From contig NZ_OY780939.1 of the NCBI RefSeq assembly GCF_963675975.1, positions 2,976,001 through 3,040,000 of the forward strand: 64,000 nucleotides of DNA. Reading direction: 5' to 3'. The translations under genes were made by a program, and so were the position numbers. The notes under the pieces were generated by a model. That model ran no database searches, was not told the DNA's origin, and worked only from the letters and a program-made list of their open reading frames with translations. Of this stretch, positions 2,444 through 63,442 are shown in pieces (the first letter of the stretch is position 1; each line of letters opens with the position of its first letter). This stretch comes from Halarcobacter sp. Lineage in GTDB: Bacteria > Campylobacterota > Campylobacteria > Campylobacterales > Arcobacteraceae.

Positions 2444-3308
2444 ACCTTCTCCTATAATCACATTTTTGGCAAAACTCTTCTATAACTTTGCCATTTTTAA
2501 ATCCATTTTGAATATCTTTAACTCTTTTAGTATCTAAAATATCTGATATTTTATCATTATTTACATTACCTAAGTTGATTATACCATCCTTGTCCAAACA
2601 ACAAGGAACAACATCCCCACTACTTAAAATCCCAAAATGGGAATCCAAACCATAACATTTCCCCGTATCAGAGATAAAATCGTTGTTTAAATCCGGCCAT
2701 TGGAAATAATCATCAAAATTAAAAAACACCATTCTAGCTATTTTTATATTTTTAGGTCTATTTTTATATATCTCATCAATATCAAGATTTAAACAAAACC
2801 TTTCATTTACTTTTTCAAAAACATTTTTATTAAACTCTTTTGCACTTTTTGAATCATCTAAATTCCAAATCCGTAAATTTATAAAAAAGTGTTGTTTTTT
2901 ACTGATTGCATAATCTAAAAAATCTAAAATTGGTACTAAATACTCATCTAAACTTTTTTTATGAGAATTGGCATTATAAGAGTTTATAGAAAAATTTATC
3001 TGCTTTATAGCATTGTGCATCAAAGTGTTAAAGTGGTTTTTATTTAAATTATTTGCAGTTGTTGTTATATTAACTTTCAGATTTGAATCAAAGCTGATAT
3101 CTAAATATTTTTCAAGATTTCCTAAAACTAAAGGATCTCCTACAATATGATATGCTAACTCTTTAGTTATACCCTCTAACTGCATATTTATATTTTTAAA
3201 ATTTTCTAAAGACATTGTTTTATTAGGCAATGTTTTGGGTGGACAAAAACTACATTTTAGATTACATATATTTGTTATTTCAATATGTACTTTTCTAAAT
3301 TTTTTTAT
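2436..3308 (-). CDS. Radical SAM/SPASM domain protein with a non-canonical start codon
   Basis: Radical SAM enzyme of about 290 aa. Reading the frame upstream of the first TTG (3230) restores the essential N-terminus: a C-x3-C-x2-C cluster motif (C-N-L-K-C-S-F-C) at residues 15-22, preceded by H-I-E-I-T-N. The C-terminal part (after about residue 215) has further cysteines (C-C-L and F-C-Q-K-C) like an SPASM auxiliary cluster. No ATG, GTG or TTG occurs between the in-frame stop at 3321-3323 and the motif. The best initiation site is ATA at 3308, 6 nt after AGGA (3318-3315); ATT at 3311 is second. The Shine-Dalgarno sequence overlaps the stop of the upstream gene, so the genes look coupled. 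Substrate unknown; SPASM relatives modify peptides or anaerobic enzymes. Confidence 0.75.
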   Translation of the reverse strand: MKKFRKVHIEITNICNLKCSFCPPKTLPNKTMSLENFKNINMQLEGITKELAYHIVGDPLVLGNLEKYLDISFDSNLKVNITTTANNLNKNHFNTLMHNAIKQINFSINSYNANSHKKSLDEYLVPILDFLDYAISKKQHFFINLRIWNLDDSKSAKEFNKNVFEKVNERFCLNLDIDEIYKNRPKNIKIARMVFFNFDDYFQWPDLNNDFISDTGKCYGLDSHFGILSSGDVVPCCLDKDGIINLGNVNNDKISDILDTKRVKDIQNGFKNGKVIEEFCQKCDYRRRFD

Positions 3309-3856: not shown

Positions 3857-5438
3857 CTATTTCCCTTTTTGTATCTAGAGGTAATTTTATACTAAAACAT
3901 GCACCTTTATAGGTTTTATTTTCATATTCTAATATATCATTTGTAACATCAATTTGTCCATTTAAATGTTTAACTATATTATTTGACATATAAAGACCTA
4001 TTCCTGTACCATGATATCTGTGTTTTGTTGTAAAATATGGCTCAAATATTCTATCAATAATTTTTTCACTAATTCCACCACCACTATCTTTTACTTCTAA
4101 AATAATAAAATTTTTGTTTGCATGAAATTGAATAGCTATTATCTTCTTATTTTTATTTTTTATCAACTCATCAACAGCATTACTTAAGATATTTAATAGC
4201 ACTTGAAGAAATTCATTTTCATAAGTAAATAGTTTCATATCTTCTATATCCAAAGTAAAAATTATTGAAAGTTGATTATAACGTGATTTAATAAGTTTTA
4301 TAGCACTTTGAATTAAGTCTCTAATTTCAAAAAGATTTTTCTCTTTATCTGGTTTAAAAAAGTTTCTAAAATCATCAATTGTTTTTGATAAATATTGAAC
4401 TTGGTCATGTATTGTATTTAATCCAGAACTTAACAGTTCTTTATCTAAAACACCTTGTTCATTTTGTAAAATCATGCCACTAGAAAGTACTGAAACTGCA
4501 GATAAAGGTTGTCTCCATTGATGGGCAATGTTTTCTATCATCTCACCCATTGCAGCCATTTTTGATTGTTTTTTCATCATTGTTTCATATTCAATCAACT
4601 CTTTTTTGGCTTTTGAGATCTCTTGTTGTAGTGTTCTATTGTACTCTTTTAATTTTGTATTTAATTCCTCTTTCTCTTTTTCTATCTCGATTCTCTCTCT
4701 AATATCTCTTGAGATTGCTGTAACAAAATCTGTATCTAAATAGTTTTTTAGATGTAAAGAGCTTTCAACTGGTATTTCAGTTCCATCTTTAGCCATATAA
4801 ATACCAAAGGTAATTAAACTTTTTTTATCTTCTAACTTTCTAAAAATTTCAGCTATTTGTATTTTTTGGCTTCCCTCAAAAGGTCTTCTAATTTCACTGA
4901 TTTTTTTACTTTTTAACTCTTCTAAACTATAACCTAAATTTTTACAAACCTTTTCATTTGCAAACTCAATCATCTCATTTTCTTTATTAATTAAAAAAAT
5001 CATATCACTTGAAGAATTAATCAATTCAAAATATAAGTTTATTTTTTCTGTTCTTTCTAATCTATTAGTAATATCTTTTGAATAAGATATAACGTACTCT
5101 TTTGAATCAATAACTTTAAATTTTGAGACAACTTCTACAGGAAAATGTTCTCCTGATTTTTTTCTATGGGAAGTTTCAATAATATTTGATCCTGCAATCT
5201 CACTTTGTTTAAAACTATCTAAGGCATTTAAGTATTTATCTTTAGTATCAACTTTTACATCTACATCCCAAAGTTTCAATGTTAATAACTCTTCTAAACT
5301 ATAACCTAAACACTCTAAAGCAGTATCATTTGCAAATACAAAATTTCCTTCTTTATCTATCCAGTATATTGCTTGATTTGATTGGGCAACTGAAGATTTT
5401 AAAATTTCATTACTATTTTTTTCTAAAAAATTGGTCAT
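3849..5438 (-). CDS. Soluble PAS-PAS sensor histidine kinase
   Basis: Cytoplasmic sensor kinase of 529 aa without membrane helices. PAS domains lie at about 15-125 and 135-250, each with the G-Y-S-L-E-E-L signature. A coiled coil follows (250-295), then the phosphoacceptor helix with H at about 305 in the motif I-A-H-Q-W-R-Q-P-L, and a HATPase domain with N-box N-A-V-D-E-L, D-S-G-G-G-I, F-E-P-Y-F-T-T-K and G-T-G-I-G-L. All ATP-binding motifs appear intact. It heads a four-gene minus-strand operon with an unknown protein, a radical SAM enzyme and an EI24 membrane protein. No response regulator is in that operon; the one at 938 belongs more naturally to the divergent Cache kinase. Confidence 0.88.
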   Translation of the reverse strand: MTNFLEKNSNEILKSSVAQSNQAIYWIDKEGNFVFANDTALECLGYSLEELLTLKLWDVDVKVDTKDKYLNALDSFKQSEIAGSNIIETSHRKKSGEHFPVEVVSKFKVIDSKEYVISYSKDITNRLERTEKINLYFELINSSSDMIFLINKENEMIEFANEKVCKNLGYSLEELKSKKISEIRRPFEGSQKIQIAEIFRKLEDKKSLITFGIYMAKDGTEIPVESSLHLKNYLDTDFVTAISRDIRERIEIEKEKEELNTKLKEYNRTLQQEISKAKKELIEYETMMKKQSKMAAMGEMIENIAHQWRQPLSAVSVLSSGMILQNEQGVLDKELLSSGLNTIHDQVQYLSKTIDDFRNFFKPDKEKNLFEIRDLIQSAIKLIKSRYNQLSIIFTLDIEDMKLFTYENEFLQVLLNILSNAVDELIKNKNKKIIAIQFHANKNFIILEVKDSGGGISEKIIDRIFEPYFTTKHRYHGTGIGLYMSNNIVKHLNGQIDVTNDILEYENKTYKGACFSIKLPLDTKREIDE

Positions 5439-18212: not shown

Positions 18213-20942
18213 ATGCGTTTTTCCCTCTCAAAGTTTAATTTTTTAAATTTAGTTATTAGTACTTTATTATTTTCTATTATAACAGGTATTTTTGTATATA
18301 AATTTGCCGATGATTTTTATGATGATAGAGTAGAGACATACGAAAATAACTATATAAACTCAAATAAAGATTTAATAAAAAATGAAATTGAAAAAGTTAT
18401 TAAAAGAGCTGAAGCTTTAAAAGAATTACAATATGCAAATAATAAATTAGTATTAAAAGAGAAGATTGATTATATACAAAGGGTACTTAGCAAAAAATAT
18501 TCTTCAAAACAAAACATTGAAAAAATAATAAATGAAACAAAACCTACACTTGATTATTATAAGTGGGATAACAATACTGGATATATTTATATTTTTGATA
18601 AAAAAGGTAAAATTCTTTATCATGGAACCAACAAAAACCTAATTTCAAAAAATGTTTTAGATATTGCAAAAGATAATAGTGAATTTGTATCTTTCCTACA
18701 ACAAACACTCTCTAAAGATGAAAATTATGGTAGTTATTTTTGGAATAAACCCCTAACAAATAAAAATGAACTCTTTGAAAAATATGTTTATATAAAATAT
18801 AATGAAGAGCTTAAGATATATATAGCTGCTGGTGTATATAAAGATGAAATGGACAAAAAAACCATAAATACTTTTTTAAATGAATTAGAAGTGAATAGAT
18901 TTGGAGAAAATGATTATGGCTATTTTTGGGTACTTAATACAAAAGCTACAATTCTTATGCATCCAATTGATACTGAATTAGAGAAAAGAGACTTAACAAA
19001 TCTAAAAAGTTTCGATAATAAGATGTTTATTCAAGAGATAATAAAAAGAGCAAAAAAAGATGTAACAGGATATATAACTTATCATTGGAATAGACCTGAT
19101 ACCTTACAAGTAGATGAAAAAACCAGTTATTTTTATTATATTAAAGATTGGAATATTATCATAAATTCAGGATTTTATCTTGCAGAATTAAAAAAGTTCT
19201 TATCTGATGAAAAAATGAAATTAAAAGATTCATTAATTGAGTATTCTGAAAAAGTTTTATCAATACTTATTATTCTAACAATTTTCTCTATACTAATTGC
19301 TAAATTTATATCCTCAAGAATTGAAAAAATAGAAGATGAAAAAAATGAAAACTATAATCTGTTAGAACAATATAAAATGATTTTAGACCATACCTCAGTT
19401 GTTTCAAGAGCTGATATCAATGGAAAGATCCATTATGTAAATGATAACTTTGAAAAGATAAGTGGTTTTAAAAAAGAGGTTCTAATAAACAATAGTTATA
19501 GCATATTAAAACATCCAGATAACAATAAAAAACAGTATAAAGAGTTATGGCAAACAATAAAAGCAGGTAATATTTGGAAAGGTTTAATTAAAAATAGACG
19601 TAAAAATGGGGAAAGCTATTATAATAAAACAACTATATTTCCAATAAGAGATTCAAATGGAAAGATAGTAGAATTCATATCCTCTTCTACAGATGTGACA
19701 GAACTATTAGAAAATAGAACCAAACTAAATGATCTATTTAAAAATGACCCTTTAACAGGTTTAGGAAATAGAGTAAGTCTTATAAATAAACTTGCAACAG
19801 TTGATGAAGGAGTACTAGCTTTAATCAATATAGATAGATTTAAAGAGATAAATGATAGTTATAGTCATGAAATAGGTGATGAAGTAATCAAAACTTTTGC
19901 AAATAGATTATTTGATTTCTTTAGTGACAAAAATTGCATTTTATATAGAGTACAAGCTGATATTTTTGCTATATATTACCCTTATCAAGATATTGAAGTA
20001 TTAAAAGAACTTGTAGAAAAATTTATGAAAGAAAAAGGTAAAGAAGCTTATTATGTAGAAAAAAATAAATTTATTGTTACATATACTTGTGGTTTAGCAA
20101 CCAATAAAGAAAATCTTTTAACCTTTGCAGACATAGCTTTAAGTGAAGCAAAAAATAAGAAAATAAGAATTGCTGTATATAATAGTTCAATGAAAAGTGT
20201 GGAGCAATTTAAAAACAATATTTTATGGGTAGATAAACTATATAAAGCTTTAAGTGAAGATAGAATAATTGCCCACTATCAACCAATTTACAATTATCAA
20301 ACTAAAAAAATTGAAAAATATGAAGCCTTAATGAGATTAATTGAAGATGATAAGATAATATATCCAAATGAATATCTAAGTATTGCAAAAAAGACAAGAC
20401 TATATCCTGAGTTAACATATAAAATGGTTGAAAAAGTTATAAGTAAATTCTCAACTATAGAAAAAGAGTTCTCTTTAAACTTATGTGTTGAAGATTTAAT
20501 GAATGATGAATTGATGTCTTTTATCTTTGATTTTGCCCAACAGAAAAAAGTGTTTAATAAAATGGTTTTAGAAATAGTTGAATCAGAAGAGATTGAAGAT
20601 AGTGAACATATTACTAAACTTCTAAAAAGATTCAAAGATAAAGGGTGTAAAATAGCAATCGATGACTTTGGAAGTGGATATTCAAATTATGATTATTTGA
20701 TTAAACTTCAAGTTGACTATATAAAAATTGATGGTTCAATTATTAAACATATTTTAGATGATACAAAAACACAAAATTTAGTTAAATCAATAGTAAGTTT
20801 TGCAAAAAAATCAGATATAAAGGTTATTGCAGAATTTGTTAGTTCTAAAGAGATTGACAGTTTGTTAAAAGAGTTAAATGTGGACTATGCTCAAGGTTTT
20901 TATTATGGAAAACCCTCAAAAGATTTAATCTGTCATCTATAA
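18213..20942 (+). CDS. Membrane Cache-PAS-GGDEF(degenerate)-EAL cyclic-di-GMP phosphodiesterase
   Basis: 909-aa membrane signalling protein. A TM helix (about 12-30), two Cache-like modules (about 40-330, with G-Y-I-Y-I-F-D and Y-G-Y-F-W-V-L-N), a second TM (about 345-365), PAS (about 385-500), GGDEF-like (about 505-655) and EAL (about 665-905) are visible. The cyclase motif is replaced by Q-A-D-I-F, so it should not make c-di-GMP. The EAL domain keeps E-A-L-M-R, N-L-C-V-E-D, L-E-I-V-E-S-E, I-D-D-F-G-S-G-Y, D-Y-I-K-I-D and Y-A-Q-G-F-Y, so it probably hydrolyses c-di-GMP. The dead GGDEF may bind GTP as a regulator. Its stop overlaps the convergent kinase gene by 10 bp. Confidence 0.87.
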   Translation: MRFSLSKFNFLNLVISTLLFSIITGIFVYKFADDFYDDRVETYENNYINSNKDLIKNEIEKVIKRAEALKELQYANNKLVLKEKIDYIQRVLSKKYSSKQNIEKIINETKPTLDYYKWDNNTGYIYIFDKKGKILYHGTNKNLISKNVLDIAKDNSEFVSFLQQTLSKDENYGSYFWNKPLTNKNELFEKYVYIKYNEELKIYIAAGVYKDEMDKKTINTFLNELEVNRFGENDYGYFWVLNTKATILMHPIDTELEKRDLTNLKSFDNKMFIQEIIKRAKKDVTGYITYHWNRPDTLQVDEKTSYFYYIKDWNIIINSGFYLAELKKFLSDEKMKLKDSLIEYSEKVLSILIILTIFSILIAKFISSRIEKIEDEKNENYNLLEQYKMILDHTSVVSRADINGKIHYVNDNFEKISGFKKEVLINNSYSILKHPDNNKKQYKELWQTIKAGNIWKGLIKNRRKNGESYYNKTTIFPIRDSNGKIVEFISSSTDVTELLENRTKLNDLFKNDPLTGLGNRVSLINKLATVDEGVLALINIDRFKEINDSYSHEIGDEVIKTFANRLFDFFSDKNCILYRVQADIFAIYYPYQDIEVLKELVEKFMKEKGKEAYYVEKNKFIVTYTCGLATNKENLLTFADIALSEAKNKKIRIAVYNSSMKSVEQFKNNILWVDKLYKALSEDRIIAHYQPIYNYQTKKIEKYEALMRLIEDDKIIYPNEYLSIAKKTRLYPELTYKMVEKVISKFSTIEKEFSLNLCVEDLMNDELMSFIFDFAQQKKVFNKMVLEIVESEEIEDSEHITKLLKRFKDKGCKIAIDDFGSGYSNYDYLIKLQVDYIKIDGSIIKHILDDTKTQNLVKSIVSFAKKSDIKVIAEFVSSKEIDSLLKELNVDYAQGFYYGKPSKDLICHL

Positions 20943-22357
20943 AATATAATTTGAAAGTGTGCTCCAACATATTTTTCTTTTTTATAAGAGAATGTTTTAT
21001 TTTCAACTGTAATGGTTCCACGATACCTCTCTCTTATAATTTTATCACACATTGATAATCCTATCCCTGTACCAATTGTTGCATGTTTGGTAGTAAAATA
21101 TGGTTCAAAAACTCTATTTAATATATTTTCTTCAATTCCACCTGCATTATCTAAAATAGAGATAATAAACTCATCATTATCTGTTTTTTTAGTTTTTATA
21201 AAAATAAGTCTTTTAGATTCTTTTTCATCTAGATTTTCAAGAGCATCAATTGCATTTTTCAATATATTAATTAAAACTTGTGATAACTCATTTATATTAC
21301 CCAACATTGTTAAATCTTCAGTTATATCAACATCAACTTTTATTTGATTTACTTTTAATGAAGATTCCAAAAGAACTAAAGATTCATTTATTGAGTCAGA
21401 TATTTTTATATTAGAGGGTTTCTTATCTACTTTTATAAAATTCCTAAAATCATCAATTGTTTTTGATAAATAATTAGCTTGAAGTAAAACCTTCCCAAGT
21501 GATGTATTAAGTTCTTTTTTCTCTATTTTTTCATCATATTCAATCTTTAAACTCAGTCCACTTACAATTGTAGTTATAATACTTAGAGGTTGTCTCCATT
21601 GATGTGCAATATTTCCAATCATTTCTCCCATTGAAACAAGTTTAGACTGCTCATAAGATAGTTTATCTCTTTTTTTTATCTCTTTTTGCTCTGCTAAAAT
21701 CATCTCTTTTTGTTCTTGAATCTTTTTTTCAAGATTATTATTTAAATCTTTCAAATCAGATTCTGTCTTAATCATTCTATTTAAAGATGGTACTACTATA
21801 AGTATAACTTCAAGAAATATTGTTAATAAAGTACCAAATAAAATAAATAACTCTCTGTTTTTTAATTCATTTGTATACTTCTCACTCTCTTTTTCAAATC
21901 TATTTACAGCATAATCTAAAGTTGGTAAAAGTTTAAAAGAGTAATTTTGTATAGATTCAACAATAAACTTATTATTTAAATTCTCAAGAAAAGTTTCTAA
22001 AAGTGAAATATAATTTCTTACTCTAACATCTAAATTAAATTTTTCTTCAAAATATATATCTTTTATATCTTTACTTTCCGTATTATTTAAAAGAAATTCA
22101 TGATCATGTTTCATTGTCAAAATTAATTCTTCTAAATGATTTATTAATTCCTTGTCTTCAGTTTCATAAACTCTTTTTACCATAAGAGTTGTTTTTTGAG
22201 ATAACATTCTTTGTTTCCCACTAATATTTATTAGTTTTGCATATATCTCTTGAGTATTTATTAATTGATTCATTGTAAAAAAAGCAAAAAAAGCCCAAAA
22301 TATTAATGAAGCAATTAGTATTGCATAAGTGATTTTTATATTTAATATTGTTTTCAT
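20933..22357 (-). CDS. Membrane sensor histidine kinase with PilJ/NarX-type sensor domain
   Basis: 474-aa kinase. A TM helix (about 8-28) is followed by a periplasmic helical domain starting with N-I-S-G-K-Q-R-M-L-S-Q-K, the motif of the type IV pili methyl-accepting N-terminal (PilJ) family, related to the nitrate-binding P-box of NarX. A second TM lies near 173-195. A coiled coil leads to I-G-N-I-A-H-Q-W-R-Q-P-L-S (His about 255) and an intact HATPase with N-A-I-D-A-L, D-N-A-G-G-I, F-E-P-Y-F-T-T-K and G-T-G-I-G-L. The ligand may be nitrate or nitrite, or simply redox or membrane state. There is no adjacent response regulator. Confidence 0.87.
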   Translation of the reverse strand: MKTILNIKITYAILIASLIFWAFFAFFTMNQLINTQEIYAKLINISGKQRMLSQKTTLMVKRVYETEDKELINHLEELILTMKHDHEFLLNNTESKDIKDIYFEEKFNLDVRVRNYISLLETFLENLNNKFIVESIQNYSFKLLPTLDYAVNRFEKESEKYTNELKNRELFILFGTLLTIFLEVILIVVPSLNRMIKTESDLKDLNNNLEKKIQEQKEMILAEQKEIKKRDKLSYEQSKLVSMGEMIGNIAHQWRQPLSIITTIVSGLSLKIEYDEKIEKKELNTSLGKVLLQANYLSKTIDDFRNFIKVDKKPSNIKISDSINESLVLLESSLKVNQIKVDVDITEDLTMLGNINELSQVLINILKNAIDALENLDEKESKRLIFIKTKKTDNDEFIISILDNAGGIEENILNRVFEPYFTTKHATIGTGIGLSMCDKIIRERYRGTITVENKTFSYKKEKYVGAHFQIIFYR

Positions 22358-23908: not shown

Positions 23909-23922
23909 TTGATTACAATCAA
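23909..23922. promoter_or_regulatory. FNR-type box between diguanylate cyclase and hemerythrin genes
   Basis: TTGATTACAATCAA matches TTGAT-N4-ATCAA exactly. On the plus side the -10 TACAAT (23945-23950) begins 29.5 bp from the box centre, the class II FNR geometry (box at -41.5), serving hemerythrin at 23974. On the minus side TATAAA (23886-23881) has the same distance and faces the diguanylate cyclase. The same box and spacing recur at 54160, 54562 and 55702. Confidence 0.75.
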
Positions 23923-51677: not shown

Positions 51678-52475
51678 ATGGAAGAGAATGATTTTGTAAA
51701 AAAACCAATCAAGAGTCTATTAAAAATTTTAGACTCTTTTTTTAATGATGATACTACATATTATGCAGCAAGTCTTAGTTTCTTTACAATCTTCTCTTTA
51801 CTTCCAATTATCGCCCTACTTATTTATATAATCTCAAGCTTAGAATTAATTCAAGGGTATTTAGATGTATTTATCAATTATATATTTGATATTTTAAACC
51901 CTACCCATTCAAAAGAGTTCTTAGAAGCTTTTAAAAACTATATTTCAAACTCAAATAAACTAGGTATTATTGGTGTACTTTATATGTTATTTGTATTTAT
52001 TATGTTTTTTAAAGATTATGAATATATAGTAAATAAAATACATAAAGCAAAAAGAAAACCTCTATTACAATCTTTTTTCTTTTATCTTATTTTTTTAGTT
52101 ACACTTCCACTTATGTTAGCTGCACTTAATATCGCACTATCATTTTATGAAAATACAATATTTAACTGGTTTATCACTTTTATATTTGCTTGGTTTATCT
52201 TTTTTGGTTTATTTAAATTGAGTGTAAACAAATATATCTCATCAAAAGCTGCTGCAATATCTTCACTATTTACTTTAATAGTATTGTCTATTACTAAAAA
52301 TTTATTTGTGTATTATGTGGTTTATAATAAAACTTATTCAACTATTTATGGTTCTTTGGCTATTTTATTGTTTTCTTTTTTCTGGATTTATATTTCGTGG
52401 GTTATATATCTTTATGGGATAAAAATGTGCCATAAACTAAATATTCTAGAAGAGAGTAAAAAATTAAAAAATTAA
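51678..52475 (+). CDS. YihY/BrkB-family membrane protein
   Basis: 265-aa protein with about six helices and the family signature Y-Y-A-A-S-L-S-F-F-T-I-F-S-L-L-P near the start and I-Y-L-Y-G near the end. Once called ribonuclease BN by mistake; the present view is a membrane transporter-like protein of unknown substrate. It starts 5 bp after glcD. Its end overlaps the convergent sensor gene by 4 bp. Confidence 0.88.
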   Translation: MEENDFVKKPIKSLLKILDSFFNDDTTYYAASLSFFTIFSLLPIIALLIYIISSLELIQGYLDVFINYIFDILNPTHSKEFLEAFKNYISNSNKLGIIGVLYMLFVFIMFFKDYEYIVNKIHKAKRKPLLQSFFFYLIFLVTLPLMLAALNIALSFYENTIFNWFITFIFAWFIFFGLFKLSVNKYISSKAAAISSLFTLIVLSITKNLFVYYVVYNKTYSTIYGSLAILLFSFFWIYISWVIYLYGIKMCHKLNILEESKKLKN

Positions 52476-53461
52476 CTTTTATTTTCTACTTCTTTTAAAA
52501 TACTATCTAATTGCTTTTTTAAATCATTTAATTTTTTTGTAGTTTTTATTAAGTTATCAGAAGACTCAATTGCAATATCTTCACTTCTATCAATACTTTT
52601 TATGATATCAGATTTATTTTCTAAATCATCAATAATATTTTCAAACTCATCAGTTAAATCTTGAAGTTTTTCCGAAGCTAATCTAGATTGTTCTAAAGCA
52701 ACTTCTGAGTAATTCATAGCTGAATTAACTTTATTAATAAAGAAATTAATATTGTCTGCCATCTCAACAAACTCTTTTTCAGATTCTATCTCAATTGGCT
52801 CTATCTCAGTTATATCAGAAGAACTAATTTTTTTATATTTTTCAAGAAACTCATTTGCATGACTTTCTATTTGTCTTAACTGAATTAAAGAATATAAAGA
52901 GAATATAAATAAAAATGAAAATGCCAAATATTGAAAGTTTTTGATAAATGCAGTTTTTTGCTCTATATATTCTGTATATAAAGTTACAATCTCATCTACC
53001 TCTTCAAGAAGCTTGTTATTAGTTTGATATATATACTCCAATATAGAGTTTAATTTTTCTATATCATTAGTTAATACTGCTTTTTTAAACTCAATTGTAT
53101 TTTTTTCAAAAGTTGCCCACATTACACTTACTTTTGAGATTTGATTTGCCAAACTTGCAGTTGGTGCTTCTGAAATTTTTAGCAAATCATTTCCATTTTT
53201 TAAAGTATCCAAACCATATTTAAATTCATCAATTGCATTATCAATTTCTGAGAAATTGTTTGCTCTTGTTTGATAAAGATAAAAAATATTTTTTGTAATT
53301 CTTTGGGTTAACATTCTTTGTTTTCCTGCAATATTTACAATTGTGGCATCTTTTATATTTTTTTGATTTAAATATATTGTTATGACAATTACACAAAATA
53401 TTGAAGTAAAGAGCAATGCACCTAAAATCTTTATTTTTTGACTTACACCTATTTTTTTCAT
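52472..53461 (-). CDS. Membrane protein with PilJ/NarX-like nitrate-sensing domain but no output domain
   Basis: 329-aa protein. A TM helix (about 10-30) is followed by N-I-A-G-K-Q-R-M-L-T-Q-R-I, the type IV pili methyl-accepting N-terminal motif related to the nitrate-binding P-box of NarX. A periplasmic four-helix bundle reaches about 175, a second TM covers about 178-197, and the remaining 130 residues are a charged coiled coil. There is no kinase, methyl-accepting or GGDEF domain. It starts 1 bp after the crp/fnr gene, so it is in the same operon. A role as a membrane nitrate/nitrite receptor influencing that regulator or a separate kinase is an inference. Confidence 0.75.
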   Translation of the reverse strand: MKKIGVSQKIKILGALLFTSIFCVIVITIYLNQKNIKDATIVNIAGKQRMLTQRITKNIFYLYQTRANNFSEIDNAIDEFKYGLDTLKNGNDLLKISEAPTASLANQISKVSVMWATFEKNTIEFKKAVLTNDIEKLNSILEYIYQTNNKLLEEVDEIVTLYTEYIEQKTAFIKNFQYLAFSFLFIFSLYSLIQLRQIESHANEFLEKYKKISSSDITEIEPIEIESEKEFVEMADNINFFINKVNSAMNYSEVALEQSRLASEKLQDLTDEFENIIDDLENKSDIIKSIDRSEDIAIESSDNLIKTTKKLNDLKKQLDSILKEVENKS

Positions 53462-53462
53462 T

Positions 53463-54125
53463 TTATATCCCTAAGTATATACTTTTCAATTCTTCTTCTT
53501 TTAAAATTACAACATTACTTTTTTCTACCATTATAGTTTCATTTCTAACTAATCTTTTTAAAACCCTTGATAAGGTTTCAGGCTGAATATGAAGAAGCAA
53601 TGCAACTTCTGTTCTTTTTAATTGGTTAAACATATCCAAATCATTTATTAACATAAAGGCAACTTTTGAAGTTGCATCAAAAACCAATTCCCTATTTATA
53701 ATACATTGTAATTGTTGGTTTTTATAAATCAACTCATTAATAAATTTTAATATTAATTCATTTTGTGCCAAAAACTCTTTTTTAAACCTGTTAAAATCAA
53801 TTGATAAAATGGTACTATCTCTTAAAAATTCACTATTTGAAAAACAGTTTATTTTATTATCTTGTAAATTAGATAATTCAGATATCATAGAGTTTGGATA
53901 AACATAATATAAAAATATTTCATTATCGTATTTATCTATTTTATAAACTTTTAAAAGTCCATCAATTAAAAATAATAATCTGTCTGTAGTTTCAGTTTCA
54001 TAGAAAAGTACTGTTTTTGCATTATATGAAGAGATTTCTGACATTGATGCTACTAAATCTAACTCACTATCTGACAAATGTGAAAATAAACTTATTGATT
54101 TTATTGCTTCTTTTGTTTTAATCAT
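53463..54125 (-). CDS. Crp/Fnr-family regulator of the nitrate/NO module
   Basis: 220-aa regulator: cyclic-nucleotide-binding-like sensor domain (about 10-125), dimer helix (130-150) and a C-terminal HTH whose recognition helix reads P-E-T-L-S-R-V-L. The E, S and R match FNR residues that read TTGAT. There is no N-terminal cysteine cluster; the only cysteines are isolated, so it is not an oxygen-sensing [4Fe-4S] FNR and resembles the Dnr/NssR type. I start at ATG 54125, because the longer frame begins at a TTG inside the binding box. No ribosome binding site precedes the ATG: TATAAT (54137-54132) is only 6 bp away, so the mRNA is probably leaderless. Confidence 0.82.
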   Translation of the reverse strand: MIKTKEAIKSISLFSHLSDSELDLVASMSEISSYNAKTVLFYETETTDRLLFLIDGLLKVYKIDKYDNEIFLYYVYPNSMISELSNLQDNKINCFSNSEFLRDSTILSIDFNRFKKEFLAQNELILKFINELIYKNQQLQCIINRELVFDATSKVAFMLINDLDMFNQLKRTEVALLLHIQPETLSRVLKRLVRNETIMVEKSNVVILKEEELKSIYLGI

Positions 54126-54159
54126 CGTACAATTATATAAAATTAAACTGAAACTTTTA

Positions 54160-54173
54160 TTGATTTGAATCAA
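54160..54173. promoter_or_regulatory. FNR-type box between the crp/fnr gene and the ygbA-like gene
   Basis: TTGATTTGAATCAA fits TTGAT-N4-ATCAA. Each direction has a -10 beginning 29.5 bp from the box centre: TACAAT at 54196-54201 for the gene at 54221, and TATAAT at 54137-54132 for the regulator. Both are the class II (-41.5) arrangement, so the regulator likely controls itself and its neighbour. Confidence 0.82.
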
Positions 54174-54220: not shown

Positions 54221-54556
54221 ATGAAAAAAGATAAATTTAAAAAAGAGATAAACACTTTAAAAATTTTTTTTGAACTTTATTGTAAAACAAATCATAAAGC
54301 TCAAAATAGTTTTAATAATATTATTAAATATCAAGATTTTACTTTAAACAATGAGATTACACTATGTAATGACTGTAAAAAATTATTTGACTATAGTGTA
54401 AATAAACTACAAAATTGCCCCCATGAAGAAAAACCAAGATGTAGAAAATGTCCCAATCCATGTTATGAAAAAGATCAATGGAAAGCTTTAGCTAAAATCA
54501 TGAGAAGTAGTGGTTTAAAGTTAGGATTACTAAAAATAAAAAATCTGTTTTCTTAA
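54221..54556 (+). CDS. YgbA_NO-family protein (nitrous oxide-stimulated promoter family)
   Basis: 111-aa cysteine-rich protein. C-N-D-C-x3-L-F-D-Y, then C-P-H-E-E-K-P-R-C-R-K-C-P-N-P-C-Y matches the YgbA_NO family (E. coli YgbA), whose genes are controlled by NO-responsive regulators. The Cys spacing suggests a bound metal or cluster. The class II FNR-type promoter upstream agrees. Its biochemical role is not known to me. Confidence 0.82.
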   Translation: MKKDKFKKEINTLKIFFELYCKTNHKAQNSFNNIIKYQDFTLNNEITLCNDCKKLFDYSVNKLQNCPHEEKPRCRKCPNPCYEKDQWKALAKIMRSSGLKLGLLKIKNLFS

Positions 54557-54561
54557 TGCAC

Positions 54562-54603
54562 TTGATTTAAATCAATTTAATAAATTTATTTTTTATGTAA
54601 AAT
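54562..54603 (+). promoter_or_regulatory. FNR-type box and promoter of moaA
   Basis: TTGATTTAAATCAA (54562-54575) is a full palindrome. The -10 TAAAAT (54598-54603) begins 29.5 bp from its centre. Transcription would start near 54610, 13 nt before the moaA ATG. Confidence 0.8.
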
Positions 54604-55701: not shown

Positions 55702-55743
55702 TTGACTTAAGTCAAAGTTTTAAATTTTTTTTAGTGTTAAAAT
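55702..55743 (+). promoter_or_regulatory. FNR-type box and promoter of the nap operon
   Basis: TTGACTTAAGTCAA (55702-55715) is a perfect palindrome, TTGAC variant. TAAAAT (55738-55743) begins 29.5 bp from its centre, predicting a start near 55750, 36 nt before the napA ATG. Confidence 0.82.
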
Positions 55744-55785: not shown

Positions 55786-58596
55786 ATGTCACTTTCAAGA
55801 AGAGATTTTCTAAAAAGCTCTGCTGCAGCATCTGCCGCAGCAGCAGTTGGCATGAGTGTACCTAGTAATCTAAGTGCAGCTACTCAAACAGCTGAAGCTG
55901 GATGGAGATGGGATAAGGCTGCATGTAGATTTTGCGGTACAGGTTGTGGAATCATGATGGCAACAAAAAATGGAAAAATTGTTGCAGTAAAAGGAGATCC
56001 AGCAGCACCAGTAAATAGAGGATTAAATTGTATTAAAGGATACTTTAATGCAAAAATCATGTATGGTGCAGACAGATTAAAAACTCCACTTTTAAGAGTA
56101 AATGCAAAAGGTGAGTTTGACAAAAATGGAAAATTTGCTCCTGTATCTTGGCAAAGAGCTTTTGATGAAATGGAGATTCATATCAAAAAAGCTTTAAAAG
56201 CTTCAGGACCAGAAGGTGTTGGTGTATTTGCATCTGGGCAATATACAATTATGGAAGGTTATGCAGCTCAAAAAATGATGAAAGCTGGATTTAGATCAAA
56301 TGCTATTGATCCAAATGCAAGACACTGTATGGCTTCAGCTGTTGTTGGTTTTTATCAAACATTTGGAATTGATGAACCTAGTGGTTGTTATGATGATATT
56401 GAACTTACAGATACAGTTGTATCATGGGGTTCAAATATGGCTGAAATGCACCCTATTTTATGGTCAAGGGTTACAGATAGAAAATTATCAAACCCAGACA
56501 ATGTAAAAGTTGTAAATATTTCAACTTATAGACATAGAACTTCTGATTTAGCAGATATGGAGATTATATTTACTCCAAATACTGACTTAGCTTTATGGAA
56601 CTATATTGCCCATGAAATAGTTTATAATCATCCAGAAGCTATTGATTGGGATTTTGTTAAAAAACATATAATTTTTGCAGCAAGTCCAGTTAATATGGGT
56701 TATGGTATGAGAAGAACTGGAGAAAAATCTCTAAAAGATGGTAAATACTCTGATAAAGAGATGGAAACTATTTCTAAAGAGATGAAAAAAACAGTATCAG
56801 AAACTGAAGCACCAGCATTAGCTCCATATGGTTATAAAGCTGGAGATGTTATGGAAAATAATCCAGCAGGATTAAAACACTGGGAAATCTCTTTTGAAGA
56901 GTATAAAAAATTCCTTGAACCATACACTTTAGACTATGTAGCAAAAATATCTAAAGGTAATCCAGATGAAGATATTGAAGTATTTAAGAAAAAACTTAAA
57001 GATTTAGCTTCTTTATATATTCAAAAAGACAGAAAAGTTGTTTCATTCTGGACAATGGGTATGAATCAACACACAAGAGGTACATGGGTTAATACTTTAG
57101 CTTATAACGTACACTTCTTATTAAATAAACAAGCAAAACCTGGTTCTGGAGCATTTTCACTTACTGGACAACCAAGTGCATGTGGTACAGCAAGGGAAGT
57201 AGGAACATTCTGTCACAGATTACCTGCTGATATGATGGTTGCAAATGGTGCTCATAGAAAAATTGTTGAAAATAAATGGCAAATTCCAGAAGGAACATTA
57301 AACCCAGTTGGAAATCAACACATTATGAAAATCCATAGAGATATTGAAGATGGTGTAGTAAAATTTGCGTGGGTTAATGTTTGTAATCCTTATCAAGATA
57401 CTGCAAGTGCAAGCCACTGGATAAAAGCAGCTAGACAAATGGATAATTTTATCGTTTGTTCAGATGGGTATCCAGGTATTTCTGCAAAAGTATCTGACCT
57501 TATTTTACCTTCAGCAATGATTTATGAAAAATGGGGAGCTTATGGTAATGCAGAAAGAAGAACTCAACACTGGAGACAACAAGTATTACCAATAGGTGAT
57601 TCTATGTCTGATACTTGGCAATGGGTTGAATTATCAAAAAGATTTAAAATAAAAGATTTATGGGGTGAATACACTCTAAGAAATGGTAAAAAACTTCCAG
57701 ATGTAATTGCAAAAGCTAAAGAGATGGGATATGATGAAAATACAACTATGTATGATATCCTTTTTGCAAACAAAGAAGCAAAAAGCTATAAACTAAATGC
57801 TGAAGATCCTATCCAAAAAGGATTTGATAATACTGAAGGATTTGGTGATAACAGAAATGTTCTTGGAAGTGATGGAGAAGTTTGGAAAGGTTATGGTTTC
57901 TTTATCCAAAAATATCTATTTGAAGAATACGCTTGGTTTGGTAGAGGTCATGCACACGATTTAGCTGACTTTGATACTTATCATAGAGTAAGAGGACTTA
58001 AATGGCCAGTTGTAGATGGTAAAGAGACTCAATGGAGATTTAATACTAAATATGACCCATATGCAAAAAAATATGGAAAAGAGACTGGACATACAGATTT
58101 CGCATTTTATGGAAAACTTGCAAAAGCTCTTCCTAGTGGAGACCTTTTAGGTGTTAAAAATAAAACTAAAACTGCATTAAAAAACAAAGCAAAAATATTT
58201 GCTAGACCATATATGGATCCACCAGAAGTACCAAATGAAGAATATCCATTATGGTTAAGTACAGGTAGAGTTTTAGAACATTGGCATAGTGGAACTATGA
58301 CAATGAGAGTTCCAGAACTTTATAGAGCTGTTCCGGAAGCACTTTGTTATATGCACCCAGAAGATGCAAAAAAACATGACCTAAAACAAGGTGGATTATG
58401 TTGGGTTGAATCTAGACGTGGAAAAGTAAAAGCTAGAGTTGAAACAAGGGGAAGAAACAGACCTTCTAGAGGATTAGTATTTGTACCTTGGTTTGATGAG
58501 AAAGTATTTATTAACAAAGTATGTTTAGATGCAACTTGTCCGCAGTCAAAACAAACAGACTTTAAAAAATGTGCAGTTAAGATTTATAAAGCATAA
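55786..58596 (+). CDS. napA: Periplasmic nitrate reductase catalytic subunit NapA
   Basis: 936-aa molybdoenzyme reducing nitrate to nitrite in the periplasm. A twin-arginine signal (S-R-R-D-F-L-K, residues 4-10) leads an Ala-rich helix. The [4Fe-4S] motif C-R-F-C-G-T-G-C-G and later C-I-K-G are near residue 50. The molybdenum ligand Cys is in the segment A-R-H-C-M-A-S-A-V. It is longer than proteobacterial NapA, as in Campylobacterota. GAAGGAGAAG lies upstream. It leads napAGHBF-x-LD, all on one strand with small gaps. Confidence 0.96.
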
Positions 58597-58616
58597 GTAA
58601 AAAAGGGAGTACTGCT

Positions 58617-59444
58617 TTGAACAGTAATAATCCTTTGAAAGAAAATAAAATGAAAAGTGAAGAGATAAGTGACAGAAGAAAATTTTTTTTAAACTTAGCA
58701 AGAGCAGCAGGAATTGCTGCTCTTGGTGGATTAATTTGGAGTGCTTATATTGATGAAGTAACAGCATCAGAACTAACTCTAAGACCACCTGGTGCATTAG
58801 ATGAAGAAGATTTTCTAAAAACATGTATCAAATGTGGAATGTGTGTAGAAGCATGTCCATATGACACACTTAAATTAGCAAAACCAGGAGATAATAAACC
58901 TTTGGGAACTCCTTTTTTTGAGCCAAGAGATGTGCCTTGTTATATGTGTACAGATATACCATGTGTTCCTGTTTGTCCAACAGATGCATTAGATATAACT
59001 AAAGTAAGTACAAATGGAAAGCTTAACATAAATCAAGCTCAAATGGGTGTTGCAGTAGTGGATACAAAAAATTGTATTGCCTTTTGGGGAATTCAATGTG
59101 ATGCATGTTATAGAGCCTGTCCCTTATTAGATGTTGCTATAAAATTAGAATATACAAAAAATGAAAGAACAGGAAAACACGCTTTTTTAAAACCAATTGT
59201 TGATAGTGATTTTTGTACTGGTTGTGGGCTTTGTGAAAGAGCTTGTGTGACAGAAAAAGCATCTATTTTTGTTTTACCTAAAGAGGTAGCTCTAGGACGT
59301 GCTGGAGATTATTATATTAAAGGTTGGGATAAAACAGATGAGAAAAGACTTGAAAATGCAACTAGTGAAACAACAAAAACTGAAATAAGTAAACAAAAAG
59401 CTGTTGATTCATTAAATGATATGGGAGGACTTTTAGATGATTAA
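58617..59444 (+). CDS. napG: Ferredoxin-type protein NapG
   Basis: 275-aa periplasmic iron-sulfur protein passing electrons toward NapA. A twin-arginine signal (S-D-R-R-K-F-F-L) precedes four [4Fe-4S] motifs: C-I-K-C-G-M-C-V-E-A-C-P, C-Y-M-C-T-D-I-P-C-V-P-V-C-P, C-D-A-C-Y-R-A-C-P and C-T-G-C-G-L-C-E-R-A-C. The start is TTG at 58617 with GGGAG 7 nt upstream; an ATG at 58650 lacks a ribosome binding site. It overlaps napH by 8 bp. Confidence 0.94.
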   Translation: MNSNNPLKENKMKSEEISDRRKFFLNLARAAGIAALGGLIWSAYIDEVTASELTLRPPGALDEEDFLKTCIKCGMCVEACPYDTLKLAKPGDNKPLGTPFFEPRDVPCYMCTDIPCVPVCPTDALDITKVSTNGKLNINQAQMGVAVVDTKNCIAFWGIQCDACYRACPLLDVAIKLEYTKNERTGKHAFLKPIVDSDFCTGCGLCERACVTEKASIFVLPKEVALGRAGDYYIKGWDKTDEKRLENATSETTKTEISKQKAVDSLNDMGGLLDD

Positions 59445-60252
59445 GAATAAATTTCTAATCCTTAGAAGATTAACTCAAATATCTATAATGGTTTTATATT
59501 TTGGTGCTAATGCTTGGGGATGGAATATTTTAATTGGAAATTTAAGTTCATCAAAAATCATGAATTTAATTCCAATGAGTGATCCTTATGCAGTATTGCA
59601 AATGTTTGTTTCAGGGGCAATAATAGCATCAGATGTATTTTTAGGAGCATTAATTGTTGTTATATTTTATTCAATAATTGGAGGAAGAGCATTTTGTTCT
59701 TGGGTTTGTCCTGTAAATATTATTACAGATTTGGCAAACTATATTAGAAGAAAACTTGAATTTAATAGAATTCAAAAAAGACAACCTGCTACAAGAAATA
59801 TCCGATACTGGACAATAGCAGTTAGTTTAATAATTTCTTTTATTTTTGGAGTAGCAGCCTTTGAATTTATTTCTCCTATATCAATGGTACATAGAGGAAT
59901 AATTTTTGGTTTAGGTTTTGGTTGGTCGGCTATTCTAATTATATTTTTATTTGACCTTTTTATTTTAAAAAATGGTTGGTGCGGACATATTTGTCCCTTA
60001 GGAGGATTCTATTCAATAGTAGGAAAATTTAGTCTTATTAGAGTAGAACACGAAGAAGAAAAATGTACACTTTGTATGAAGTGTAAAGAGGTTTGTCCAG
60101 AAAGTCAAGTATTGTTTATGGTTGGAAAATCAACAGAACAAATACTTTCAGGAGAATGTACAAACTGTGCAAGATGCGTAGAAGTTTGTGATGATGATGC
60201 ACTAAACTTCTCATTAAGAAATCTGATAGATAATAAAAAGAAGGAGAATTGA
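59437..60252 (+). CDS. napH: Quinol dehydrogenase membrane component NapH
   Basis: 271-aa membrane protein with about four helices, the C-S-W-V-C-P and C-G-H-I-C-P-L-G-G motifs, and two C-terminal [4Fe-4S] motifs (C-T-L-C-M-K-C-K-E-V-C-P, C-T-N-C-A-R-C-V-E-V-C). With NapG it replaces NapC as the quinol oxidase for the system. Confidence 0.94.
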   Translation: MIKNKFLILRRLTQISIMVLYFGANAWGWNILIGNLSSSKIMNLIPMSDPYAVLQMFVSGAIIASDVFLGALIVVIFYSIIGGRAFCSWVCPVNIITDLANYIRRKLEFNRIQKRQPATRNIRYWTIAVSLIISFIFGVAAFEFISPISMVHRGIIFGLGFGWSAILIIFLFDLFILKNGWCGHICPLGGFYSIVGKFSLIRVEHEEEKCTLCMKCKEVCPESQVLFMVGKSTEQILSGECTNCARCVEVCDDDALNFSLRNLIDNKKKEN

Positions 60253-60253
60253 T

Positions 60254-60883
60254 ATGAAACTTGTTACTAAACTTGGGCTTGGTTTAGCAGTAACTTCATT
60301 TATTGCATTTATAGGTTGTTCTCAAGCTCAACCAACAATTTCAGAAGAATCTTTAGGACTAAGAAAAGTTGATCTTTATAGTGAAGATACAGTAGTACCT
60401 GAAGAAACTAAATACAATAAAGCTGCACCTAGTAGTTCTAAAACAATTAATAGAGCTTTTCAAGATGCACCACCAATGATTCCACACGATGTTGAAGGAA
60501 TGTTACCAATTACTGTGAACAATAATCAATGTGTAAGTTGCCATGCTCCAGAAGTTGCACCATCACTTGGAGCGTTACCATACCCTAAATCACATATGAT
60601 TAATTTTAGACCAGAAACATCATTGGCTAAAGATGGTAAGATAGTAAAAAATGGAAAAGAGATTGATAATACATCAAGTGAGAAACTTGAATATGTTACA
60701 ATCAAAAATATAAATAAACTAAATGGAGCAAGATTTAACTGTTCGCAATGTCATGCTCCACAAAGTGAAGGTGAATTAGTAGGAAATACTTTTCAACCAG
60801 ATTTTACAAATGAAGATGGTATGAAAAAATCTAGTTGGTCAGGTTCTAAACTTACTGAGGGTTTAGACACATTAATGGAATAA
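60254..60883 (+). CDS. napB: Diheme cytochrome c NapB
   Basis: 209-aa small subunit of nitrate reductase, with two C-x2-C-H heme motifs, C-V-S-C-H and C-S-Q-C-H. The N-terminal signal ends in F-I-G-C, a possible but imperfect lipobox. The start is 2 bp after napH. Confidence 0.94.
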   Translation: MKLVTKLGLGLAVTSFIAFIGCSQAQPTISEESLGLRKVDLYSEDTVVPEETKYNKAAPSSSKTINRAFQDAPPMIPHDVEGMLPITVNNNQCVSCHAPEVAPSLGALPYPKSHMINFRPETSLAKDGKIVKNGKEIDNTSSEKLEYVTIKNINKLNGARFNCSQCHAPQSEGELVGNTFQPDFTNEDGMKKSSWSGSKLTEGLDTLME

Positions 60884-60885
60884 TT

Positions 60886-61374
60886 ATGAAAAGAAGAGAG
60901 CTTTTTAGCTCTCTTGCCAACTCTTTTTCTAAAAAAGAGGAGCAAGAGACTCAAATTAGACCACCATATTATAAAGAATTAGATTCTTTTCATAAAGAGT
61001 GTACTAACTGTGATAATGAGTGTGCCACTTTTTGTGAAGAAAATATAATTATAATTGGAAAAGATAATACTCCAATAATTGATTTTAGTTTAGGAGGATG
61101 CACATATTGTGATGAGTGTGCAATAAATTGTCCTAACGATGTATTAACTATAGAAAACAAAAAAAGAATTGACGCTAAAATTGAGATTGATATTTTAAAA
61201 TGTATTAGTTGGCATAATACAATGTGCTTTTCATGTAAAGACCCATGTTTAGATGATGCCATAAAATTTTTAGGGATGTTTAGACCCTCTATAGATGAAA
61301 ATATTTGTACAAATTGTGGTTTTTGTATTTCAAAATGCCCAACAGAAGCTATTACTATTATTAAGGAGAATTAA
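60886..61374 (+). CDS. napF: Ferredoxin-type protein NapF
   Basis: 162-aa cytoplasmic iron-sulfur protein thought to help NapA maturation. It starts M-K-R-R-E-L-F-S. The cluster motifs C-T-N-C-D-N-E-C, C-T-Y-C-D-E-C-A-I-N-C-P, C-x-S-C-K-D-P-C and C-T-N-C-G-F-C-I-S-K-C-P are visible; the first is a variant. Two bp separate it from napB. Confidence 0.92.
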   Translation: MKRRELFSSLANSFSKKEEQETQIRPPYYKELDSFHKECTNCDNECATFCEENIIIIGKDNTPIIDFSLGGCTYCDECAINCPNDVLTIENKKRIDAKIEIDILKCISWHNTMCFSCKDPCLDDAIKFLGMFRPSIDENICTNCGFCISKCPTEAITIIKEN

Positions 61375-62998: not shown

Positions 62999-63442
62999 AT
63001 GGAATTTTTACAAAGTGAATTTTTAATAGAAACAATTGTACCTGAAGATGAACTAATTATTTCAAGAACAGATTTAAAAGGTAATATCACATATGCAAAT
63101 GAAACTTTTGCATATATTAGTGGTTATACTGTAGAAGAGTTAATAGGTAAACCACATAATATAGTTAGACATCCAGATATGCCGAAAAGAGTCTTTAAAC
63201 AGATGTGGGAAAAACTTCAAAGAAAAGAAAAATGGGAAGGTGTTGTAAAAAACCTAAGAAAAGATACTGGGTTTTATTGGGTACATGCAACTATAAGTGG
63301 AGTATATAAAGATGATAAACTAGTTGAATATAAATCAATAAGAATTCCAATTTCACATACAGAAAAAATTAAATTCCAAAGATTATATGATTCATATAGA
63401 AACATAGATAAAGAAAATATAAGAAAAATCATCTACACTTAA
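62999..63442 (+). CDS. PAS-only protein, CetB/Aer-like
   Basis: 147-aa cytoplasmic single PAS domain. I-S-R-T-D-L-K-G-N-I-T-Y-A-N-E, G-K-P-H-N-I-V-R-H-P-D-M-P and F-Y-W-V-H-A-T match the energy-taxis PAS proteins (Campylobacter CetB, Aer N-terminus), which bind FAD and sense redox state. The ATG directly follows the napD stop, so it is translated with the nap operon. A partner chemoreceptor such as CetA is not in the window. Confidence 0.82.
   Translation: MEFLQSEFLIETIVPEDELIISRTDLKGNITYANETFAYISGYTVEELIGKPHNIVRHPDMPKRVFKQMWEKLQRKEKWEGVVKNLRKDTGFYWVHATISGVYKDDKLVEYKSIRIPISHTEKIKFQRLYDSYRNIDKENIRKIIYT

Follow-up and report, generated by a model that had tools for sequence, protein, structure and literature searches.

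A PilJ receptor without a recognised output domain paired with an NssA-type Crp/Fnr regulator in Campylobacterales: a candidate kinase-free nitrate switch

A 64,000-nucleotide stretch of DNA from Halarcobacter sp. (Arcobacteraceae, Campylobacterales; NCBI RefSeq assembly GCF_963675975.1, contig NZ_OY780939.1, positions 2,976,001 to 3,040,000), referred to here as the window, contains two adjoining genes that probably constitute a kinase-free nitrate switch, in which a PilJ-type membrane receptor would directly control a Crp/Fnr regulator related to NssA of Wolinella succinogenes. A previous reading of the letters and open reading frames (ORFs) alone, made without database searches (the sequence-only reading), described a regulator followed by a membrane protein, both on the minus strand and one base apart, and this description was correct. 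The pair had been treated as a local oddity; instead, it is a recurring module of the order that occurs in single-PilJ, double-PilJ and nosZ-linked forms. The main features are the following:

52472..53461, minus strand: output-less PilJ receptor of 329 aa (PF13675 at 67.8 bits, hydropathy, AlphaFold2 (AF2) model, fold and profile matches)
53303..53338, minus strand: nitrate N-box V42-Q53, VNIAGKQRMLTQ, with Arg49 aligned to R61 of McpN (consensus from PMC6381276)
52508..52585, minus strand: tail motif, residues 293-318, SEDIAIESSDNL..., a proposed regulator contact (column conservation over 200 pairs)
53463..54125, minus strand: Crp/Fnr regulator of the NssA clade (PF00027 and PF13545, tree, AF2 model, profile match to DNR, 3dkw)

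The receptor

The receptor carries one PilJ domain (PF13675) at residues 30-130, with a score well above the curated Pfam cut-off of 26.6 bits. With approximate boundaries, it consists of a first transmembrane segment (TM1, ~12-34), a periplasmic sensor (~36-172), a second segment (TM2, ~175-197) of low hydropathy (1.53 over residues 177-195), a HAMP-like part (199-255) and a tail (256-329). The first sensor helix contains the sequence VNIAGKQRMLTQ, which fits the full consensus of the nitrate N-box of PilJ domains, [IVL][ND]xAGxQRML[ST]Q, including the key Arg, whose equivalent in McpN is R61 (PMC6381276). With the receptor family profile, matches were obtained to PilJ (7zjr, 2e-14), McpN (6gcv, 3.5e-9) and NarQ (5iji, 5e-4). 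The AF2 model (mean predicted local distance difference test, pLDDT, 78.5; parts of the tail below 60) gave NarQ fragments as top Foldseek matches, and McpN and PilJ folds matched too. Residues 1-253 align to residues 2-230 of the NarQ fragment 5jeq, which covers TM1, sensor, TM2 and HAMP (Z 13.7, 223 residues, root-mean-square deviation (rmsd) 3.3 Å), so that the N-terminal ~250 residues of the receptor are matched, and residues 36-167 align to the McpN ligand domain (Z 17.8, rmsd 2.0 Å).

At the place where kinases have their signalling domains the receptor has a helical tail of ~75 residues, modelled with low confidence. Searches of Pfam up to E = 1 and of NCBIfam up to E = 0.1 recognised neither an output domain in general nor a DHp/HisKA or HATPase domain, and Pfam, at the same E limit, showed no MCP signalling domain. 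The earlier description of a membrane protein with a nitrate-receptor-like motif and no recognised output is thus upheld; the statement that it has only a coiled coil inside the cell holds as far as the missing output is concerned, but overlooks the HAMP-like part suggested by the NarQ alignment and the conserved motif at residues 293-318.

Since NarQ also responds to nitrite (PMC12285233), the N-box alone leaves the ligand undecided, and the receptor could sense nitrite or another anion instead of nitrate. This is highly improbable: McpN, with a full N-box, binds nitrate and not nitrite (PMC6381276), and the nap, nrf and cnos genes of W. succinogenes respond to nitrate, nitric oxide (NO) or nitrous oxide (N2O) but not to nitrite (PMC8139620).

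Pairing of receptor and regulator across genomes

The receptor was present in 86 of the 104 family genomes examined. In all 60 loci fetched around receptor matches across the order a regulator homologue was located immediately upstream of the receptor, and nap genes were found within the fetched stretch (3.8-12 kb) in 37 of them. In the opposite direction, 298 genomes of the order were searched with a profile built solely from paired regulators, and 96 of the best 100 matches were paired by coordinates with a directly downstream receptor. From the remaining four, G136 turned out to be paired after all, G071 lies, by its coordinates, at a contig end, and G034 and G186 are unpaired, which places a receptor directly downstream of the regulator in 97 of the 99 resolvable cases. 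The coordinate comparison confronted the best 129 regulator places with 105 of the receptor places listed; multi-PilJ proteins looking periplasmic, the kinase of genome G000 and the receptor of G100 (locus L028) were left out of the latter, and L028 is a real exception to the pairing. Among the receptor places 101 were paired, L312-L314 were paired once fetched, and the one at G201 C81 begins at contig base 19. Further down the ranking (regulators 101-129) 5 of 29 were paired by coordinates, and G074 and G032 were later found paired.

Regulator and receptor overlap by 4 bp in 65 of 93 single-PilJ pairs, the window pair not being one of them, and such overlaps suggest coupled translation, as expected for a complex. 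On plasmid pSULKU01 of Sulfuricurvum kujiense, which was typed as non-mobilizable, nap genes are followed in turn by the genes for a PAS protein, the regulator and the receptor and by moaA. A tblastn search against plasmids retrieved five regulator records, all Campylobacterota by name, and one receptor record, and in a sample of the phylum all genomes among the matches listed were of the same order, a further 50 genomes giving no match. In the portions of the open-access literature and reviews that were covered, neither the pairing as a recurring kinase-free module nor its nosZ-linked form was found.

The wide distribution of the receptor also bears on the suggestion that it signals to the PilJ kinase at 20933, said to have the same motif. 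The kinase (20933-22357) does possess an N-box, INISGKQRMLSQ, with an Ala-to-Ser change, and a PilJ match of 25.6 bits (just below the cut-off of 26.6) or 28 bits in the genome search, where kinase and receptor were the sole PilJ matches at E <= 0.001. The similar N-box and the presence of only two PilJ matches in the genome could speak for a receptor that feeds a histidine kinase in trans. Such a route is nevertheless scarcely credible, as full-length orthologues of the kinase (E < 1e-90) occur in 14 of the 104 family genomes (a fifteenth, in G290, is partial) versus 86 for the receptor, and the kinase possesses a PilJ sensor of its own; on this distribution kinase 20933 was rejected as the partner.

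Relationship to NssA of Wolinella succinogenes

One genome of the order with three regulators of this kind (E <= 1e-5) and a nap-linked pair is, we assume, that of W. succinogenes DSM 1740. One of its regulators lies beside nap and is followed by a receptor of 460 aa; the other two (NssB and NssC) have no adjoining receptor, and one of them is upstream of an interrupted nosZ. When two regulators from a second genome were compared with the Wolinella three, the identities were 45.2/28.6/25.5 and 33.2/48.8/28.2, and the values published for Nitrosophilus labii with respect to NssA/NssB/NssC are 44.8/29.2/26.1 and 33.3/50.0/28.2 (PMC11539149). Because the computed identities match the published ones, the receptor-paired Wolinella regulator is, by this sequence correspondence, NssA.

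The window regulator shares 40% identity with NssA over 215 aligned columns. A tree was constructed with 83 regulators, comprising 71 paired ones, NssA, G034, G186 and nine outsiders (NssB, NssC and seven others). A branch with support 100/97 separates all 71 paired regulators, NssA, G034 and G186 from NssB, NssC and the seven other unpaired ones, and the window regulator falls on the NssA side. As the nine outsiders were picked for lacking a receptor, the tree shows a common grouping of the paired regulators sampled; it does not imply that all outsiders are unpaired.

The adjoining gene may be mentioned in the original NssA paper, reportedly that of Kern and Simon (2016). NssA has been tied to the nitrate response in the literature, its sensing mechanism was called open by a review, and none was described in the portion of the literature covered. 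The receptor is proposed to be the missing sensor of NssA, acting by direct contact without phosphotransfer, and the gene adjoining nssA is a ready candidate for the nitrate part of NssA sensing.

The regulator itself was listed as an ORF at 53463-54173 (minus strand) with a TTG start, one base from the receptor ORF. The ATG at 54125 is the more likely start, because homologues are mostly ~220 aa long and a Crp/Fnr palindrome (54160-54173) would otherwise be inside the ORF. Its recognition helix reads ETLSR, the AF2 model has a pLDDT of 89.3, and in profile comparison DNR (3dkw) is the nearest protein of solved structure. It was stated in a review that Arcobacter butzleri encodes no homologue of the FNR/CRP family (PMC6682613), whereas most family genomes examined here carry the regulator.

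The cytoplasmic tail and the proposed mechanism

According to the receptor, 207 unique pairs were classified as 93 single-PilJ (short), 52 longer (>400 aa) and 62 divergent. Seven of these, masked in part or short, were dropped before the motif, coevolution and conservation counts, and 200 were kept. Across the three forms the tail contains the motif [S/T/K]EDxxIxSxExL, and within residues 293-318 E294 and I298 are conserved in 99%, D295 in 95% and L304, L311, L314 and L318 in 94-96% of the pairs; further columns of the most conserved group include Q53 and K57 of the N-box helix, F80, W115, N148 and F205. A relaxed version of the motif was present in 183 of 202 complete receptors. A Pfam search with the tail of the window receptor alone produced sub-threshold matches only. 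The receptor of L028 (372-1682, minus strand), a long PilJ protein without an adjoining regulator, lacks the SED motif by eye. Since the motif is conserved across the forms and absent from the regulator-less L028, the tail is the likely point of contact with the regulator. R194 of the regulator, the sole position conserved in at least 93% of the paired regulators that is changed in both G034 and G186, was considered as a hint to the contact and rejected, as it follows the recognition helix.

The ORF upstream of the L028 receptor (1734-2636, minus strand) is CheV/CheW-like by eye, as judged from its start, and this receptor has possibly been rewired to chemotaxis. Together with the fact that chemoreceptors can carry PilJ domains (PMC6381276), this orphan would favour the window receptor being a chemotaxis or other accessory protein that signals through Che proteins. 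Such a role is very unlikely for a protein lacking an MCP signalling domain in Pfam, whose constant neighbour is the regulator (60 of 60 loci) and which has nap genes close by in the 37 loci mentioned above.

Direct control of the regulator by the receptor fits these data better. The sequences themselves establish domain architecture, N-box, operon pairing, clade and boxes, and the mechanism that we infer, from nitrate binding through contact and sign of the effect to the regulon, would be as follows. The PilJ protein would be a homodimeric membrane receptor that binds periplasmic nitrate between its two N-boxes, each chain contributing its Arg49, in the manner of McpN and NarQ. The resulting movement would run via TM2 and the HAMP-like part to the helical tail with the SED motif, by which the neighbouring NssA-type activator would be directly controlled. 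In the simplest form, the regulator would be held at the membrane in the absence of nitrate and let go in its presence; as a version of direct control, opposed to allosteric activation, this is perhaps somewhat less than an even bet. The freed regulator would then bind TTGA-N6-TCAA sites before nap, moaA, ygbA, its own operon and perhaps a hemerythrin-like gene, and a sister pair beside nosZ would have the same wiring with an altered ligand site. The suggestion of the sequence-only reading that the receptor may signal to the regulator thus finds good support in operon pairing, common clade, conserved tail and the mapping to NssA, while the contact itself is deduced.

Receptor forms and the nosZ-linked sister pair

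Among the 200 pairs the nitrate motif GxxRM is carried by every single receptor (89 of 89) and by nearly all double ones (49 of 51), and the divergent class lacks it throughout (0 of 60). The longer receptors contained two PilJ stretches in six of the seven scanned. In 56 of the 60 divergent ones the motif is QKxx[T/I]Q, with Lys replacing the nitrate-contacting Arg, and an Arg-to-Lys change in NarX/NarQ was reported to give ligand-insensitive proteins (PMC8199190).

Divergent receptors and their regulators were first met beside clade-II nosZ (TIGR04246, 880 bits). A scan of named genomes for the nosZ-linked receptor yielded 57 loci, mostly from Sulfurimonas and also from Arcobacteraceae, Sulfurovum and Sulfuricurvum: 47 with regulator and nosZ adjacent, one more with nosZ adjacent, four at contig edges and five others. 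Of the 53 loci that can be resolved, 48 thus have the sister pair immediately before nosZ. No Wolinella record appeared among the 57 loci, in a pattern-based scan that leaves absence unproven. NssC was considered as the counterpart of the nosZ-linked regulator, being upstream of the interrupted nosZ, and rejected, as it has no receptor, is outside the clade and has a long branch.

Monophyly of the divergent-form regulators is supported at 100/100 for the 20 that were sampled, and a further 100/100 clade unites them with those of the single-PilJ form, within which their nested position has a support of only 93/78. In the nosZ-linked regulators Cys 94 is replaced by Ser in 72% and Cys 141 by Ser in 77%. 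Because both receptor and regulator differ from the nitrate form, the sequences fit a pair that works together. By extension, a general kinase-free switch for respiratory substrates may exist in Campylobacterales, with the nosZ-linked receptor re-tooled for N2O or a signal tied to it; this extension is speculative and has a small chance of holding. A strict division of labour is contradicted by receptors L079 and L080, of the nitrate type (GxxRM), which are likewise located before nosZ. No mechanism for biological N2O sensing was described in the portion of the literature covered. The nosZ-linked pair is a candidate for a sensor tied to N2O reduction, with a bearing on greenhouse-gas turnover by Sulfurimonas and relatives.

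Proteins of ~280-560 aa with tandem PilJ boxes and a signal-like N-terminus, by eye without a second TM segment or tail, were also observed (L005, 1435-3096, plus strand; L006, L013, L017, L019, L023, L024, L027, L030 and L031; two boxes in L007-L009 and L018). They are possible periplasmic nitrate-binding proteins of Campylobacterales.

Predicted binding sites and neighbouring genes

The neighbourhood of the pair and the palindromes of Crp/Fnr type are as follows:

54160..54173: palindrome TTGATTTGAATCAA, perfect Crp/Fnr type, between regulator and ygbA
54221..54556, plus strand: ygbA homologue, divergent from the regulator (PF11756)
54562..54575: palindrome TTGATTTAAATCAA, before moaA
54623..55600, plus strand: moaA (TIGR02666, 356.5 bits)
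55702..55715: palindrome TTGACTTAAGTCAA, before napA
55786..61374, plus strand: napA, napG and napH (over cut-offs), napB and napF homologues (under cut-offs), by NCBIfam
23909..23922: palindrome TTGATTACAATCAA, perfect, between a dCache-GGDEF gene and a hemerythrin-like gene

The pattern TTGAYN4RTCAA, a subset of the published consensus TTGA-N6-TCAA (PMC11539149), occurs in the window at these four sites. The hemerythrin match of the hemerythrin-like gene is 22.3 bits, below the Pfam cut-off, and the box at 23909-23922, which is not far from the PilJ kinase, may connect c-di-GMP with nitrate regulation. In the fetched loci, which are related to one another and gathered around receptors and hence not independent draws, the 250 bp preceding the gene contained the pattern for 31 of 43 napA (0.2 expected), 44 of 50 nosZ, 6 of 44 moaA and 0 of 33 napG genes, versus 14 of 437 other ORFs. 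It precedes the regulator in 6 of the 50 loci with a double receptor and in 5 of the 62 with a divergent one. In Wolinella two boxes of this kind precede napA, and the regulator has none at a distance of up to 300 bp.

Five further boxes are clustered in ~20 kb (G000:C1, 1319273-1339823) around another Crp paralogue, the second (1331746), in a neighbourhood of genes for TonB receptors and ABC transporters; no denitrification genes were seen among the 10 ORFs viewed at 1.32-1.34 Mb. A small protein encoded downstream of the nap genes (window 62999-63442), which is also found after napL in other loci, resembles the PAS protein of pSULKU01 (L363, 8460-8984) in position.

Weighing the proposed switch

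Several observations weigh against a switch of this kind or weaken its support. Within the clade, the regulators of G034 (L199), located directly before napA, and of G186 (L197) are without a receptor, and the receptor of Wolinella is of the double-PilJ form while that of the window is single. The G186 regulator (4382-5038, plus strand) is divergent from napA, sits on a long branch (1.26) and lacks a Cys at position 94. On the structural side, a fold match by itself is unspecific, and the argument for the receptor is carried by the sequence matches because unrelated four-helix bundles also reach Z 14-17 with the model; Pfam saw no HAMP domain in the receptor, though the model aligns through the HAMP of NarQ. 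Coevolution, analysed by mean-field direct coupling analysis on the 200 receptor-regulator pairs (effective number of sequences 132), was uninformative and was not used as evidence: the top intra-protein pairs were unlike contacts by eye, and the inter-protein signal was 0.75-0.98 of average for the tail and 0.86-1.03 for the periplasm, with no enrichment in the tail. As for the boxes, only 19 of 93 single-PilJ loci have one before the regulator operon; genome-wide enrichment is weak (45 sites vs 34 for the reversed pattern), for which reason the box was discarded as proof of a regulon; TTGATN4ATCAA with one mismatch is not enriched in the window (16 vs 11.5, with 11 of 100 shuffles as high); and paralogous regulators probably share the box.

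These observations bear on a further explanation, in which the regulator senses a signal of its own, for instance NO via haem like DNR, while the receptor just fine-tunes it or conveys the presence of nitrate to another target and the operon reflects shared regulation. That the NO sensor DNR is the closest solved sequence to the regulator profile agrees with this explanation, as do the two clade members without a receptor and the lack of an adjoining one for Wolinella NssB and NssC. It is set against the near-constant pairing in the best 100 regulator matches, the joint change of both proteins in the nosZ-linked form and a receptor tail that is conserved without any other recognised output, and we regard it as unlikely, though with a real chance of being right. 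Direct control by the receptor remains the preferred interpretation.

Comparison with known systems

In Thermus, DrpA/DrpB with DnrS/DnrT constitute a similar case, a proposed nitrate route without phosphorelay that involves the Crp-like activator DnrT. Unlike the window receptor, DrpA is a periplasmic protein and DrpB is associated with the membrane, no TM segment being predicted for either, and DrpA has no consensus nitrate motif; the main text of that source does not contain the term PilJ (PMC6282519). McpN of Pseudomonas aeruginosa shares with the window receptor the PilJ domain, the full N-box and the fold of the ligand domain (Z 17.8), but is a chemoreceptor, whereas the window receptor ends in a ~75-residue tail in place of an MCP signalling domain. 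With W. succinogenes NssA the likeness extends to the whole arrangement, a regulator of the same clade close to nap with a PilJ receptor after it, the difference being that the receptor of NssA has two PilJ domains and 460 aa. Escherichia coli NarX and NarQ have the layout of TM1, four-helix periplasmic sensor and TM2 in common with the window receptor, perhaps also the HAMP-like part that follows, and the GxxR nitrate motif; in contrast to them, no kinase domain was found in the window receptor and its neighbour is a Crp/Fnr protein rather than a response regulator of the NarL/NarP type. If the proposal is true, direct gating of a Crp/Fnr protein without phosphorylation would be a new way for a NarX-type receptor to control transcription.

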